DNA of 64,000 nt from Bacteroidota bacterium (GTDB lineage: Bacteria > Bacteroidota > Bacteroidia > B-17B0 > Aurantibacillaceae), in contig JAUXTT010000011.1 in the NCBI GenBank assembly GCA_030684395.1, positions 248,001 to 312,000 of the forward strand. Direction: 5' to 3'. The position numbers and the translations under genes were made by a program. This document shows positions 53,784 to 60,842 of this stretch, in pieces (within the stretch, counting starts at the first letter, position 1; each line of letters begins with the position of its first letter). Below the pieces are notes generated by a model. That model had not been told where the DNA came from, did not search any database, and worked only from the letters and a program-made list of their open reading frames with translations.

Positions 53784-53819
53784 CAATAGAAGAAAAATCA
53801 ACTTCCAACCAACTTGAAC

Positions 53820-53896
53820 ATTGATAATTGAAAAGTGATAATTGAAAATGTGATACAACGGTTAACATTTTAACTTTTCAATAATCATTTATCAAT
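53820..53896. repeat. Imperfect 77-bp inverted repeat after rsmG
   Basis: Outer arms ATTGATAA (53820-53827) and TTATCAAT (53889-53896) pair perfectly, as do the inner arms AAAATGT/ACATTTT. The middle contains shifted TTGAAAAGT/ACTTTTCAA blocks, so several pairings are possible. It is AT-rich and may serve as a weak terminator for rsmG. Confidence 0.5.
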
Positions 53897-53944
53897 TTTA
53901 CATTTGCCACTGGCACCAAAATCATAGAAGTGTAGAGCTAAAAT

Positions 53945-54047
53945 AAAAAAAGGCCGGCCACATATCCCCACGATCTGCGCCAACCTTTAATTATAGTTGT
54001 TTAAACTAACAAAACCCTTCTATGAAAGAACTAATGTAAAATTACCA
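53945..54047 (-). ncRNA. Probable structured small RNA on the minus strand
   Basis: On the minus strand the sequence ends in a long GC-rich hairpin (53952-53985): outer stem GGTTGGC/GCCGGCC, inner stem with arms CGCAGATC/GATATGTG, loop GTGGG, then a T7 run. The stem contains U-G and G-U pairs, which would be mismatches on the plus strand, so the minus strand is the RNA. About 100 nt upstream lies a promoter-like TTG-N20-GACCTTTG (54079-54081, 54051-54058). There is no open frame in it, and the next minus-strand gene upstream begins more than 1.4 kb away, so it is not a gene's leftover terminator. It matches no RNA family that I recognise. Confidence 0.5.
53952..53985 (-). terminator. GC-rich terminator hairpin of the minus-strand RNA
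   Basis: Stem of about 14 bp with one mismatch and one bulge, followed on the minus strand by T7ATTT (plus-strand A run 53945-53951). Confidence 0.65.
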
Positions 54048-54241
54048 CCCCAAAGGTCAATTTAAAACATCCAATTGCCAAGTGTTGGTACTTTTCTTTT
54101 AAGTGGTCGTTTTTTACAATTAAGTGGTCACGTTTCGTCAAGCTCAACATAACCTTTTATGCTTAATATAGCTTATTCGAGCTCAAAAAGTCCGATTTAA
54201 CTTTAAATCTTACCTTTGTAAGGCATACTAATCTTACTTTT
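54048..54241. promoter_or_regulatory. Regulatory part of the 458-bp gap before the radical SAM gene
   Basis: It holds the promoter-like elements of the minus-strand RNA, two direct copies of TTAAGTGGTC exactly 21 bp apart (54099-54108 and 54120-54129), and a plus-strand TACCTTTG box at 54211-54218, 24 bp before the TTG start codon of the radical SAM gene. The 21-bp spacing equals two helical turns, as for a dimeric or cooperative regulator; the repeats could also be the remains of an insertion-sequence end. Confidence 0.4.
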
Positions 54242-55258
54242 TTGACTTTTTCAGAAAACATAGCATTCTTAAAAACCCTTAGCCCGGCTAAGATCGCTAA
54301 CTTTATACAGGTTAAACTTAGCTACCACTACTCCAAACTTACCAAAACAAACAAACATTCCGGCTTTCCACTTAGTATTTCCATAGAGCCAACAACCAGT
54401 TGTAATTTACGTTGCCCCGAATGCCCAAGTGGTTTACGCTCATTTACCCGCCCAATAGGAATGCTACAATCGGCATTTTTTGAAAAAAGTATTGATCAGT
54501 TAGCAAATAAACTCATGTATCTTACTTTCTATTTTCAAGGTGAGCCTTACCTGAATCCAAATTTTCTTAAAATGGTGAAGTATGCCTCAAAAAAAAGAAT
54601 TTATACATCTACCTCCACAAATGCACATTACCTCAACGATAAAAACGCACAAGAAACAATAGAGAGCGGATTAAAACGTTTAATTATTTCCATTGACGGC
54701 ACAACACAGGAAACTTACCAGCAATACCGTGTAGGTGGAGATCTGTCAAAAGTAATTGAAGGAACAAGGAATATTATTAAATGGAAAAAACAGTTAGGTA
54801 GTAAAACACCTCACATTGTTTTCCAATTTCTGGTGGTAAAACCAAACGAACATCAATTGGAAGATGTAAAAAAAATGGCGAAAGAACTTGAAGTTGACGA
54901 AGTGGTATTTAAAACCGCACAGGTCTATGAATTTGAAAATGGTAACGAATTAATTCCGGATAATGAAGAATTCAGTCGTTACAAAAAAGGAATAGATGGT
55001 AAATGGCGAATCAAAAATCAATTACTTAATCAATGCTGGAGAATGTGGAGTGGCTGCGTAATTACCTGGGATGGCAAAATCGTTCCATGCTGTTTTGATA
55101 AAGACGCTAAATATCAGTTAGGATCATTAGAGGAAACATCTTTTAAAAAAATATGGCAATCCGAACCCTACAACAATTTCAGGTCTTCGATATTAAGATC
55201 AAGAAAAGAAATAGACATTTGTGCTAACTGCAGCGAAGGGACAAAAGTTTGGGCCTAA
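54242..55258 (+). CDS. Radical SAM enzyme with SPASM domain
   Basis: A 338-residue protein. The radical SAM motif is CNLRCPEC (Cys54, Cys58, Cys61) in ISIEPTTSCNLRCPECPSG, followed by YFQGEPYLN and LIISIDGTTQETYQQYRVGG. A C-terminal SPASM-like domain (QCWRMWSGCVITWDGKIVPCCFDKDAKYQLGSL through EIDICANCSEG) holds further cysteines for an auxiliary iron-sulphur cluster. Such enzymes modify peptides, proteins or other substrates; no precursor peptide gene is adjacent. There is no ATG near the N-terminus, so the TTG at 54242 is the likely start, 24 bp after a TACCTTTG box. Its end overlaps the convergent 77-aa gene by 4 bp. Confidence 0.9.
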   Translation: MTFSENIAFLKTLSPAKIANFIQVKLSYHYSKLTKTNKHSGFPLSISIEPTTSCNLRCPECPSGLRSFTRPIGMLQSAFFEKSIDQLANKLMYLTFYFQGEPYLNPNFLKMVKYASKKRIYTSTSTNAHYLNDKNAQETIESGLKRLIISIDGTTQETYQQYRVGGDLSKVIEGTRNIIKWKKQLGSKTPHIVFQFLVVKPNEHQLEDVKKMAKELEVDEVVFKTAQVYEFENGNELIPDNEEFSRYKKGIDGKWRIKNQLLNQCWRMWSGCVITWDGKIVPCCFDKDAKYQLGSLEETSFKKIWQSEPYNNFRSSILRSRKEIDICANCSEGTKVWA

Positions 55259-55493: not shown

Positions 55494-58400
55494 TTATCTC
55501 GGTTTAATTGTTCTTGGCCCGGGAGATCCTACGTTCTCTTCCTTTTTCTCTTCCTTTTTTGGTTCCGTTACCGGTGTTACCGATTTAGGAGTTGAAGTAG
55601 TTTCTGTTTTTTTTGGAGTAGTAGTTTCCTCTTTTTTAGGAGGTGTTACCGACTCTTCCTTTTTAGGAGTAGTTTGATTGTTATTATTAATAGTTCGCGG
55701 AGAATTATTTACCGGAGTAGTGGTAGTATTTGTTTTACCGCCTCCTGTATTATTTCCATCGTTATTTGTTTTACCTCCGTTACCGTTGTTATTACCATTA
55801 CCGCCTTTATTTGTAGGGCAAGCTCCAAGTACATCGCCATGAGCCTGGTGTGCAGACCAAGCACTGGCAGGAATTTGTATTTGTTGTGGGTTATTGGTAT
55901 TACCAGGAGGATAATGACAAATAGTGATCATCTGTTCATTACTGTTGTTAACACATTTCCCTTGTGTATCTCCATGTGCTTGATGTACCGACCACTCACT
56001 CTCAAGTATTTCTATTGTTTCAAGGCTACCATCTGCCTTGTGGTGACAGATTATCTTTTTCGGTATTACTACAGGGTTAGTAGGTGTTACAGGAGCAACA
56101 TAATTAAAAGTTACAGATTTACTATCCGACCCTGCAGAATTGGTGGCACTTATTGTATAAGTGTTTTGATTGCCGGGCATTGTAGTTGTAACTGTTAGCT
56201 TAAATGTGTTTGCTACATAATTAAATGGTATCACTGCTCCGTTATCTGCAATTACAGTGATCTCAGATGGAGAAGTAACAAACCTAACAGTAGCATTAAT
56301 TGTAATATTCTTGTCATTTACAGTTGCAGGGCTTGAAGCCGGATCATCAATAGTTACTTTAGGTTTCACCATTGGCCTTCTTTTAATTATTACAGACTTA
56401 CTATCACTTCCTCCTGTGTTCGTAGCTGAAATTAAGATTGTGTTATCTCCTACCAATAAGTTAGCATTGAATGTTACATTTCCATTAGAATAGGTGAAAT
56501 TCGGAACAGCAGCTCCGTTAACACTAACATTTATTTGCGACGCGCCTAAAACATTTGTTACAGAAGCATTAATGCCTTCGCTTGTACTTGAAGTGTTACT
56601 TGTTGGTGAATTTGGAGTAATAAATGTTACCACTGGTTTATCTGCAGCAACTGTTCCGTTTCCGCCGTCTGATATTTTCTTATACAACACAGAAACTGTT
56701 TTGCTATCGTTTCCAACAGCGTTTGTTCCAGTAATTGTAATTGTATTATTACCCAAATTCAGGTCTGCATTAAATGTTATAGCTCCATTATTATAAGTAA
56801 AGTTATTCACCACTGCACCATTTACTTTCACACTAATTTGCGATGCGCCTGTTACATTTACTACTGTTGCACTCACATTTTGAAGAGCATTTGTAACGGT
56901 TGTATTTGCTGTGCCAGGAATTAGTATTGTCACTATGGGTTTATCTGCAGCAACCGTTCCGTTTCCTCCGTCTGATATTTTCTTATACAACACAGAAACT
57001 GTTTTGCTATCGTTTCCTACAGCGTTTGTTCCTGTTATTGTAATTGTATTATTACCCAAATTCAGATTTGCATTAAATGTTACGGATCCATTATTATAAG
57101 TAAAGTTATTTATCACTGCACCATTTACTTTCACACTAACTTGCGATGCGCCTGTTACATTTGCTACTGTTGCACTCACGTTTTGAAGAGCATTTGTAAC
57201 GGTTGTATTTGCCGTACCTGGGATTAAAATTGTTACCACAGGCTTATCTGCTGCTACTGTGCCGTTTCCTCCATCAGATATTTTCTTATACAATACAGAA
57301 ACTGTTTTGCTATCGTTCCCAACAGCGTTTGTTCCAGTAATTGTAATTGTATTATTACCCAAATTCAGATTAGCATCAAATGTTACAGATCCATTGTTAT
57401 AAGTAAAGTTGTTCACCACTGCGCCATTCACTTTCACACTAACTTGCGATGCACCCGTTACATTTGCTACTGTTGCGCTCACATTTTGAACAGCACTTGT
57501 AACAGTTGAATTTAATTGGTTCGGCGTAACAAAACTTACTACCGGTTTATCTGCAGCAACCGTTCCGTTTCCACCGTCTGATATTTTCTTATATAACACA
57601 AATACCGTCTTACTATCACTTCCAATAAGGTTTGTTCCGGTTACTGTAATTGTATTATTTCCTAAGTTCAAATTAGCGGTGAAAGTTACAGATCCATTAT
57701 TATAGATAAAATCATTTTTAGGGATCCCGTTAACCAATACCGCAACTTGTGAAGCATTTGCTACATATGTTACAGAAGCCGTAACACTTTGAGTATTGTT
57801 TGTTGTATTTGTATTAACTGCACCGGGATTTGAAATAACAACTACCGGTTTATTAACCTCCACTGGAACGTGGTCATTCACAACCTTTTTTACGTAATTA
57901 ATTGTAACTGTTTTACTATCGCTTCCCGACTGGTTGGTTCCTTTAATTACGTATGTAGCACTTCCTGTTGTAATGTTTGCAGTAAATGTTAACAAATGTG
58001 TTACGTTATCATAATTAAATACAACAGGTGTTTGGCCCTGCATCACTGATATACCGGTACCAGAAGCATTCAACACTTCAGCAGAAACGGTATAACTTGG
58101 TGTTGCTGATAAATAAGGAGAAGTTTGAGGGTTTAGAATTGTAACAACCGGAAGAAGAACTGCCTGTTTTATTTTCTCAACTACCTGCGTTTTACTATCA
58201 GACCCTCCTTTATTGGTCACAGTAACCACTACAATATTGTTCCCAAAATTAAGTGTAACAGGAATTTCAATTTCCTTATTAGTAGAATTAAATGTGAAAT
58301 TAGTACTCACTCCATTTACGCTCACACTCACTTCTTGCTGAGCAGACACATTAACTGTACTGGCTTTAACAACAAGCTGCCCATCTGTTGTAACAAAAGG

Positions 58401-60842
58401 ATTCACTCCCGGATTTACAATAGAAACTGAAGGCTTAGGAAGAACTATATTTCCTACCGACTCCTTATAATCTATTTTAACCATTTTCGAATCGGTCCCC
58501 GCCTGATTTGTTGCCTTAATAGTATATGTATTAAGTCCGAGATTCAGATTAGCATTAAATTCAACTTGTTGGGTAACGTCGTTGTATGTAAACTGAACCG
58601 GTAAATTTGCAGCATTTACAACAGAAATTTGCTTGTAAGCAGAATTCAACACCTGAGCCAACACTGGTACCATCTTCACGCTTGACGCATGTGGATTACC
58701 TAATGGATTTATAACAGTAACTATTGGTTTAGCCTGAGATTCTTTTCTTTCTATGATTTGCGTTTTTGTATCATTCCCAAAATTAGTTGTCGCCGAAATA
58801 GAAACACTATTGTTCCCAACATTCAAACCAACCGGTATAGTTACAGTATGATTGGTAGTGTTGTACGTAAACGGAGCAGTAACATTATTTACTGTAACCG
58901 AAATATTATTTTGATTATCTACATTAACAACAGTTGCCACTACGTTTGTATTTGCAACTGCAACAGTTGCCGGATTTCCAATAGGGTTAACCAATGTTAT
59001 AACCGGAGGGAAGCCTGCTTTCTTAAAATTAACAGTGGCCATTTTTGTATCAGATCCTGAAGTATTTGTACCTGTTACAACAAATGTATTTGAGCCTTCA
59101 TTTAAGGTAACCGCAAAGTTCACGAACCCATACTGATTGAGTGTAAAAGTTGTTAGCGGCAAACCATTATACTGAATAGTTACATCCCGTTCGGTAGTTA
59201 CGTTGGTTACACGGGCAGTAACACTGAATGTATTGGTGGTAGATTCAAACGGTGAACTAGCAGGATTATTGAAAGAAACAACCGGTTTAAGCCCTGGTGG
59301 AACAATTACATTTGTTGGGTTTTGTCCGTTATAATTAACCAATACTTGTTCTGCATCATTACCTGCGCCATTAAATGCGCTCACAATAATGGAATTGCTT
59401 CCTTGAACAAGAGGAGCTACAAAACTTATTGATCCATTGTAAGAATTAAAATTGAAATTTGAAATCGTATATCCATTTGCTGAAATTGCAATGTTAGAAG
59501 AATTCGTAATGTTTGTAACGGTTGCATTTACATTTACAGAAGACGAAGTAGTTGAATAATTATTTGTAGGATAAGTAATTTGAATATTTGGGGGCAACTC
59601 GTTACCAACAACAGGGTTTGTTATATTTTGAGGAGCATAGTTTATAGAAATACTTTCATTATCCTGTCCTGCAGTGTTGGTTGCAGTAATATTAACTGTA
59701 TTGGCTCCACCCAATAAATTAGCACCAAAAGAGAATGAGCCATTATTTGGATTGAAAGTATAATTAGTTACCTGATACCCGTTTACATTAATTGCAATGT
59801 TACTTGCAGAGTTTACATATTGGATCGTTCCCGACACTTGTTGCACATTGTTATAAGAAGTAGAAGGGTTAGTTGTTGGCGAATAAATATTGATAACAGG
59901 CTTTGGCTGATTATTTCCATTAGTTGTTACATTATTAGTATTAACATTAGTGTTCGTATTGGTATTGGTATTAGTGTTGGTATTAGAATTGGTATTAGTT
60001 GAATGAGATTTACCCCAGATAGTAAAGATCAAATTAGCTGAAGTATAATGGTAAATATCATTCCCCTGTAATTTAGAATTGGTATTGGTGTATTGAACAC
60101 CATCAAGTGTATTAGTGAAAGGAAAGGAAACCTTGTGCTCAAACACAAATGCAACATGCTTACTCAATCTAAATCCTAAACCCAAACCAAGAGAAGGTGT
60201 AAATATCAATGTGCCCTGCTTATCATCCCGGTCTGCAAGTGTTTCGAAATTTGTTCCGTAAAATGATTTTAAATTCCCAACTGAAGGATTAGCACTTAAC
60301 GTAGAGTAGTCATACATTTTTCCTTCTTTATCTAAAGCATCTATGCGTGTTTTGTATTTATTGAAACCTAATCCGCCAAACACATGAAAAATTAACTTAG
60401 AACGTTTTTCCATTGCCGGGAAATTTATTTTCAACTCCAGGTCACCTTCCGCCAAATGAGTAAAATAGTTGTTGTAAAAATATCCGGGAATGCTGTCGTA
60501 CTTAACAAGCGAGTCATTTGTTCCGTTAAGAGCTGAGTTTGATTTAAGACCAAGATTTTTGTTATTATCATAACCGCTGCTATTACCGCTTAAGTATCTG
60601 AATCCAAGAGAAAAACCAATCGGAGCATCTTCTTTTCTATTCAAAATTCGTTCAATATTAAAACCAGCCGCAATACCTGCATAATTTTTCTTTACATCAT
60701 TGGTTTGCCACGTTCCGCCACCGTTAAGTCCAAGTCGCCATTTTGGATAAGGATCGGTATACACGTTTTGAGCTAAGCCAACTGACTTTATTCCGGTTAC
60801 TAAAAGTAAAATGAAAGCTATGCGAGTAATGATTGTTCTCAT
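55494..60842 (-). CDS. Outer-membrane beta-barrel fused to 13 Ig-like repeats and a Cys/His-rich tail
   Basis: A 1782-residue exported protein. Parts in order: signal peptide (to GLAQ); an OmpA-like or porin-like beta-barrel (about 25-280; YPKWRLGLNGGGTW, FGGLGFNKYK, LIFTIWGK); an Asn-Thr linker; 13 Ig-like repeats of 85-101 residues (about 310-1590), each ending with a phrase like NTITITGTNAVGNDSKTV; two copies of a motif with CH(H/Y), W(S)xHQAHGD and C (about 1597-1676); and a Pro/Thr/Lys-rich tail. There is no T9SS CTD. If the barrel is in the outer membrane, the repeats should project outward as a stalk with the Cys/His part at its tip. The gene lies 5 bp upstream of a small gene. Confidence 0.88.
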   Translation of the reverse strand: MRTIITRIAFILLLVTGIKSVGLAQNVYTDPYPKWRLGLNGGGTWQTNDVKKNYAGIAAGFNIERILNRKEDAPIGFSLGFRYLSGNSSGYDNNKNLGLKSNSALNGTNDSLVKYDSIPGYFYNNYFTHLAEGDLELKINFPAMEKRSKLIFHVFGGLGFNKYKTRIDALDKEGKMYDYSTLSANPSVGNLKSFYGTNFETLADRDDKQGTLIFTPSLGLGLGFRLSKHVAFVFEHKVSFPFTNTLDGVQYTNTNSKLQGNDIYHYTSANLIFTIWGKSHSTNTNSNTNTNTNTNTNTNVNTNNVTTNGNNQPKPVINIYSPTTNPSTSYNNVQQVSGTIQYVNSASNIAINVNGYQVTNYTFNPNNGSFSFGANLLGGANTVNITATNTAGQDNESISINYAPQNITNPVVGNELPPNIQITYPTNNYSTTSSSVNVNATVTNITNSSNIAISANGYTISNFNFNSYNGSISFVAPLVQGSNSIIVSAFNGAGNDAEQVLVNYNGQNPTNVIVPPGLKPVVSFNNPASSPFESTTNTFSVTARVTNVTTERDVTIQYNGLPLTTFTLNQYGFVNFAVTLNEGSNTFVVTGTNTSGSDTKMATVNFKKAGFPPVITLVNPIGNPATVAVANTNVVATVVNVDNQNNISVTVNNVTAPFTYNTTNHTVTIPVGLNVGNNSVSISATTNFGNDTKTQIIERKESQAKPIVTVINPLGNPHASSVKMVPVLAQVLNSAYKQISVVNAANLPVQFTYNDVTQQVEFNANLNLGLNTYTIKATNQAGTDSKMVKIDYKESVGNIVLPKPSVSIVNPGVNPFVTTDGQLVVKASTVNVSAQQEVSVSVNGVSTNFTFNSTNKEIEIPVTLNFGNNIVVVTVTNKGGSDSKTQVVEKIKQAVLLPVVTILNPQTSPYLSATPSYTVSAEVLNASGTGISVMQGQTPVVFNYDNVTHLLTFTANITTGSATYVIKGTNQSGSDSKTVTINYVKKVVNDHVPVEVNKPVVVISNPGAVNTNTTNNTQSVTASVTYVANASQVAVLVNGIPKNDFIYNNGSVTFTANLNLGNNTITVTGTNLIGSDSKTVFVLYKKISDGGNGTVAADKPVVSFVTPNQLNSTVTSAVQNVSATVANVTGASQVSVKVNGAVVNNFTYNNGSVTFDANLNLGNNTITITGTNAVGNDSKTVSVLYKKISDGGNGTVAADKPVVTILIPGTANTTVTNALQNVSATVANVTGASQVSVKVNGAVINNFTYNNGSVTFNANLNLGNNTITITGTNAVGNDSKTVSVLYKKISDGGNGTVAADKPIVTILIPGTANTTVTNALQNVSATVVNVTGASQISVKVNGAVVNNFTYNNGAITFNADLNLGNNTITITGTNAVGNDSKTVSVLYKKISDGGNGTVAADKPVVTFITPNSPTSNTSSTSEGINASVTNVLGASQINVSVNGAAVPNFTYSNGNVTFNANLLVGDNTILISATNTGGSDSKSVIIKRRPMVKPKVTIDDPASSPATVNDKNITINATVRFVTSPSEITVIADNGAVIPFNYVANTFKLTVTTTMPGNQNTYTISATNSAGSDSKSVTFNYVAPVTPTNPVVIPKKIICHHKADGSLETIEILESEWSVHQAHGDTQGKCVNNSNEQMITICHYPPGNTNNPQQIQIPASAWSAHQAHGDVLGACPTNKGGNGNNNGNGGKTNNDGNNTGGGKTNTTTTPVNNSPRTINNNNQTTPKKEESVTPPKKEETTTPKKTETTSTPKSVTPVTEPKKEEKKEENVGSPGPRTIKPR
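56638..57850 (-). repeat. Four 303-bp units with very high DNA identity
   Basis: The text TCTGC(A/T)GCAAC recurs at 56641, 56944, 57247 and 57550, exactly 303 bp (101 codons) apart. The three central units are nearly identical (KKISDGGNGTVAADKP boundary), whereas the other Ig-like units of the gene are far more diverged. Confidence 0.9.
59934..60002 (-). repeat. Hexanucleotide repeat encoding Asn-Thr dipeptides
   Basis: GGTATT-type 6-bp units (about ten, with some variants) encode the NTNTNTNT linker between the barrel and the first Ig-like repeat. Slippage would vary the linker length without loss of frame. Confidence 0.8.

Follow-up and report, generated by a model that had tools for sequence, protein, structure and literature searches.

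The analysed window (the whole 64-kb stretch of DNA, positions 248,001-312,000 of the forward strand of contig JAUXTT010000011.1, Bacteroidota bacterium GCA_030684395.1) contains an AT-rich gap between rsmG and a gene for a Radical SAM/SPASM protein (54242-55258). Read on the minus strand, divergent from the Radical SAM/SPASM gene, this gap holds an A/U-rich leader followed by a G+C-rich hairpin and a run of seven T residues, and the features assigned to it are collected in Table 1. Short AT-rich repeats (gataattga / tatcaatttt) between rsmG and the terminator (53819-53903) perhaps represent a decayed repeat element. On the other side of the Radical SAM/SPASM gene, the minus strand encodes a protein of 1782 aa with many internal repeats (55494-60842).

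Table 1. Features of the predicted small RNA gene and its control region, in window coordinates
Feature	Position	Strand	Basis
Operator repeat 1, ACCACTTAA	54120..54128	-	21-bp period in 50/50 homologues; published LytTR site type
Operator repeat 2, ACCACTTAA	54099..54107	-	as repeat 1; 21-bp period
Degenerate third repeat, AACACTTGG	54078..54086	-	this genus only; 33 bp before the -7 box
Predicted -7 promoter box, TAATTTTA (TAnnTTTR)	54037..54044	-	aligned in 50/50 homologues, fixed distance to operator
Small RNA gene, ~88 nt	54032..53945	-	covariance-model homologues and start placement; predicted +1 is A at 54032
Unpaired 5' segment GUUCUUU, candidate seed	54025..54031	-	50/50 distinct homologues
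Terminator-type hairpin, 16 pairs (10+3+3)	53949..53988	-	fold; 12 modelled pairs, changes on both sides
Loop motif GGGGAU (family form GGRGAU)	53964..53969	-	49/50 distinct homologues
T7 tail of intrinsic terminator	53945..53951	-	sequence

The preliminary description had proposed an unannotated, independent minus-strand RNA of about 100 nt that ends in a 14-bp hairpin with a T7 tail in an AT-rich gap. The hairpin and its minus-strand sense are borne out, a 111-nt stretch folding with -26.0 kcal/mol on the minus strand versus -13.3 kcal/mol on the plus strand, partly because two of the pairs are U-G pairs whose plus-strand equivalents are A-C mismatches. The seven T residues are also found as described (53951-53945), and the number of pairs is corrected from 14 to 16, in runs of 10, 3 and 3. 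As a single sequence, the fold is moderately unusual (z about -2; 3 to 11 of 200 shuffles equally good), and the energy of the 91-nt minus-strand RNA (53945-54035; -22.4 kcal/mol) was equalled by 11 of 200 shuffles. Comparative evidence, and not the fold of the lone sequence, is what lifts the predicted hairpin above chance. No reading frame is present in the ~88-nt RNA. A search of the 64-kb window against Rfam 15 gave no match at the gathering score, and the best sub-threshold matches at permissive thresholds were at chance level. While 6S RNA is a long hairpin of ~180-200 nt with a central bubble, the RNA here is of another type, with 88 nt, a single terminal hairpin and no Rfam 6S match.

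A first DNA search in the family detected the element in both remaining genomes of the genus and also in another genus. A covariance model (R1) built from a 12-sequence alignment found the sRNA in 54 of 87 family genomes, and a second model (R2), derived from 52 matches, found it in 58 of the 87 (45 of 62 good-quality genomes), these counts coming from related genomes that are not phylogenetically independent. With model R2, one copy per genome was observed except in G006, which has two. The latter copies (L119, contig C27, 521009-521112 and 522830-522931) lie 1.8 kb apart, and each has its own operator. No model match was obtained in 377 other genomes of the class outside the family, and when 396 class genomes were drawn evenly, all 14 matches fell within the family. 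An exact-pattern scan of 84,980 species returned 71 stretches, among which the covariance-model homologues came from uncultured Bacteroidota; all 26 of these homologues have an operator score of 13-18 versus at most 12 in the other stretches, and this score had played no part in the pattern search. We found no prior description of this sRNA in searches of open-licence papers.

Covariation in relatives, which had been suggested as a check, was observed throughout the stem: each of the 12 modelled pairs is changed at least once on either side in the 52-sequence alignment, a count that leans upward since the alignment was fitted to the structure. In the same alignment, 92.3% of cells are paired, compared with 35-56% when the columns are slid by 1-3 positions, and the covariation score is 0.898 versus 0.226 after shuffling and at most 0.200 after sliding. 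Three segments are constant in sequence, namely GUUCUUU at the 5' end (50 of 50 distinct homologues), UUUUGUU (49 of 50) and the loop GGRGAU (49 of 50), and the conserved parts include a single-stranded A/U-rich stretch. The constancy of the loop inside a drifting terminator stem suggests that the loop is in use. Judged by these sequence comparisons, the small RNA gene of ~88 nt is real, had not been listed before and has the hairpin at its 3' end.

All 50 homologues examined have a -7 box of the TAnnTTTA type whose first T lies 12 nt before an invariant A, and no clear conserved -33 element was seen among them. In Flavobacterium, the -7 box spans positions -12 to -5 (PMC9723704), and by this rule we set +1 at a distance of 12 nt from the box, counted from its first T. 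The predicted +1 is an A in 50 of 50 distinct homologues (position 54032 of the window). The -7 box ends in A, the consensus being G. The earlier proposal had placed the promoter at TTG-N20-GACCTTTG; this string is present, but the TA that marks a Bacteroidota -7 box is missing from it, and its conservation does not extend beyond one sister genome. Lying upstream of the conserved box TAATTTTA, GACCTTTG was rejected as the promoter in favour of the TAnnTTTR box. Read-through from an upstream gene, for which no source had been thought possible, is unlikely because the nearest upstream minus-strand gene ends at 55255, 1.2 kb away, although this distance does not make it impossible.

Further upstream, direct repeats of the form ACCACTTAT-12 bp-ACCACTTAT, exactly 21 bp apart, precede the -7 box in 50 of 50 homologues. 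The distance from the end of repeat 2 to the -7 box is 32-33 bp in 47 of them and 54 bp (33+21) in G000, G001 and G002 of the window's genus. Binding sites of LytTR regulators consist of two repeats of 9-11 nt with 11-13 nt between them (PMC4847170), and the sRNA operator, with 9-nt repeats and a 12-nt spacer in all 50 homologues, agrees with this rule. Moreover, the repeat sequence, ACC(A/G)CTTA(T/C), matches Tables 2-3 of PMC6193735, and published LytTR repeats include ACCACTTAT-12bp-ACCGCTTAT and ACCACTTAC-12bp-ACCACTTAT (PMC6193735). Such repeats are mostly located 10 bp before the -35 element (PMC6193735); the position found here is only compatible with that rule, 32-33 bp leaving room for 10 bp plus 4 plus about 19 and a clear -33 element being absent. 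When both strands of the 64-kb window were scanned, repeats 1 and 2 of the sRNA were the sole operator pair reaching at least 13 bits. The whole genome contains eight exact CCACTTA-N14-CCACTTA sites, whereas about 0.04 would be expected at equal base frequencies (our own estimate). The combined geometry of operator and -7 box was observed at 4 sites in this genome versus none in the reversed control, and at 49 sites versus 4 in 14 relatives, some genomes without the sRNA included. An exact operator match within a transporter gene (L217) looks like chance and was discarded. In the sister species G001, too, the sRNA has next to it a stretch similar to the start of the Radical SAM/SPASM gene, so that sharing of the operator with this gene is possible.

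The operator-promoter unit of the sRNA is also present upstream of an operon encoding a propeller histidine kinase and then a receiver-LytTR response regulator (Pfam), and most of the genomes inspected show the operator ahead of the kinase gene itself, with the same spacing to a TAnnTT box. Another operator lies upstream of exbB, behind which come two exbD-like genes and one TonB-like gene. Further operator-preceded genes encode a second TonB (tonB), two TonB receptors, proteins with type IX sorting tails, propeller proteins and lipoproteins. The sites at the kinase, exbB, tonB and receptor genes recur in other genera. The predicted family-wide LytTR regulon (L246, L248, L242, L250, L245, L249 and L247 in the same genome; L254, L259, L260, L280 and L281 in relatives) shows a fixed operator-promoter geometry and covers exbB/exbD/tonB, TonB receptors, type IX cargo and the kinase/LytTR operon, also in genera without the sRNA. 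At L241 (1296-2006), a gene for an RRM-type RNA-binding protein (86 aa) lies 560 bp after an exact operator pair; the -7 box at this place is unconvincing, no proper one standing at the expected distance, and this putative site is only a lead.

Orthologues of the LytTR regulator (E below 1e-60) were identified in 73 of the 87 family genomes. All 58 genomes with the sRNA have such an orthologue, and the 14 genomes without it are also without the sRNA (Fisher p 1.4e-8, relatedness ignored). The regulator gene is followed by the sRNA, on its own strand, after 66-300 bp in 25 genomes, and the two are no more than 5.1 kb apart in 31. G031, which was first scored as sRNA-less, has a diverged copy directly behind the regulator and is the 59th genome, and an unfiltered model search of the regions behind the regulator in the other regulator-positive, sRNA-less genomes gave no sRNA. 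In the window's species, a different contig carries the kinase/regulator operon (regulator gene at G000 contig C8, 8491-9237), which is thus not near the sRNA, so the link between the two rests there on the shared operator; the same genome also encodes LytTR regulators other than that of the operon. Taken at the level of sequence, it looks as though a single sensor/regulator pair switches on the sRNA and, apparently, also governs genes for membrane transport and secretion.

In our opinion, the best explanation, and a probable one, is that the RNA is an Hfq-independent, trans-acting sRNA that would serve a LytTR envelope regulon as its RNA arm. On this view, the LytTR response regulator encoded in the kinase operon would bind the repeats and thereby activate its own operon (positive feedback), the envelope genes and the sRNA. 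The sRNA may then act in trans by base pairing without Hfq, most likely through the invariant 5' GUUCUUU, the G-rich loop or both as seeds, and by analogy with the sRNAs of envelope regulators elsewhere it would most likely be the repressing arm of the regulon. Hfq was detected in none of the 87 family genomes, compared with 5 of 14 control genomes, so any chaperone of the sRNA must be another protein. A target screen of 113 start regions by duplex energies and seed complements gave no enrichment, and genes of the regulon ranked no better than others; in view of this result, base pairing and repression remain putative.

It might also be supposed that the LytTR-controlled sRNA acts by protein binding through the GGRGAU loop, serving as a scaffold or sponge like the RNAs that bind CsrA/RsmA, rather than by base pairing. 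The loop that stays constant while the stem drifts and the null target screen would both fit such a function, and GGGGAUGU resembles the CsrA consensus, ARGGAUGU. However, Csr/Rsm sponge RNAs carry several GGA motifs and each RNA here has one GGA loop, CsrA is not known from Bacteroidota, and the 5' GUUCUUU, likewise unpaired, is conserved to the same degree. We regard this possibility as unlikely. The same judgement applies to the view that the histidine kinase-LytTR-sRNA cassette would be the core of an undescribed envelope circuit of Bacteroidota, in which the G-rich loop of an Hfq-free sRNA binds a protein (e.g., an RRM-type RNA chaperone whose gene is close to one of the operators) instead of a seed pairing with targets.

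Far less probable than protein binding is a terminator without any separate RNA, either bidirectional and serving rsmG or stopping minus-strand read-through. A hairpin with a T7 tail is indeed the standard form of an intrinsic terminator, and rsmG ends convergently about 160 bp away, but neither the two U-G pairs nor the T tail function on the plus strand. In addition, the 5' segment, start, -7 box and operator are conserved together with the hairpin where rsmG is elsewhere, and the conserved loop sequence is something that termination does not need. We would give even less weight to the idea that the RNA is a leader acting in cis (riboswitch or attenuator) on a downstream gene. Some members of genus g2 have guaB next, in the same orientation and about 110-150 nt past the terminator. 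Overall, 10 of 34 homologues are followed by a same-strand gene (guaB in five), and read-through is conceivable in those 10. Against this, 24 of the 34 have a convergent gene next to them, and the identity of the following gene varies by genus (asd-like, rsmG, guaB and others), which argues against a leader, and no minus-strand gene lies directly downstream in the window. A repeated or mobile element (REP, IS end or attC-like) can practically be dismissed because, despite the GC-rich palindrome in an AT-rich gap and the nearby AAGTGGTC repeat, a DNA search found a single copy in the same genome, there is usually one copy per genome, and the AAGTGGTC repeats, rejected as an IS end, are the 21-bp-period LytTR-type operator that stands in the same geometry before other genes. 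An independent minus-strand sRNA of about 100 nt with its own promoter and terminator, as the preliminary description had it, is thus supported by the homologues in 58 genomes, the compensatory changes, the fixed promoter and operator and the variable downstream genes, only the exact promoter having been wrong.

The LytTR-controlled sRNA predicted here invites comparison with several known systems. In Staphylococcus aureus, the LytTR regulator AgrA, acting on paired direct repeats, drives its own operon and RNAIII, a peptide-encoding RNA of 514 nt with many hairpins. The predicted arrangement is similar in that a LytTR regulator with paired repeats would control its own operon and a regulatory RNA; in contrast, the RNA here has ~88 nt, one terminator hairpin and no ORF, the kinase is a propeller kinase and not AgrC, and no peptide signal genes were seen. 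Enterobacterial envelope sRNAs (sigmaE-RybB/MicA, OmpR-OmrA/B/MicF and CpxR-CpxQ) are short and have a terminator hairpin and a conserved 5' seed. Their likeness to the present sRNA lies in short length, terminator hairpin, conserved 5' segment and a (here predicted) envelope regulator, whereas the regulator family is different and the lineage here is Hfq-free; no sequence relation between them is known. The sRNA belongs neither to the RNAIII family nor to the enterobacterial families, and the working principle is alike. Within Bacteroidota, Rfp18 of Flavobacterium psychrophilum is described, in the available part of its source, as an independently transcribed intergenic sRNA conserved within its lineage (PMC9723704). 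Compared by description, both are intergenic sRNAs of Bacteroidota with lineage-limited conservation; the present model has no match outside the family (377 class genomes), and a LytTR link is not reported for Rfp18 in that part of the source. HdrR/BrsR LytTR Regulatory Systems are autoregulatory and use 9-bp repeats with a 12-bp spacer just upstream of the -35 element (PMC6193735). The repeat sequence (ACCACTTAT and near variants) and the 12-bp spacer are the same here. HdrR and BrsR are paired with an inhibitory membrane protein, whereas the regulator here combines a receiver with LytTR, goes with a histidine kinase, occurs in Bacteroidota and has an sRNA in its candidate regulon.

The number of sRNAs known in Bacteroidota is small, and for fewer still is the regulator known. 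For the present one, a regulator, an operator, a feedback loop and a protein co-regulon (TonB/ExbBD, TonB receptors and secreted proteins) are all predicted, and in an Hfq-free lineage the role of an Hfq-independent envelope sRNA can be asked directly. The large propeller-kinase/LytTR class of Bacteroidota also gains a concrete candidate binding site and regulon. In two g6 genomes (L274 and L275), the operator is located before a lipoprotein that resembles PstS-like phosphate-binding proteins by eye.
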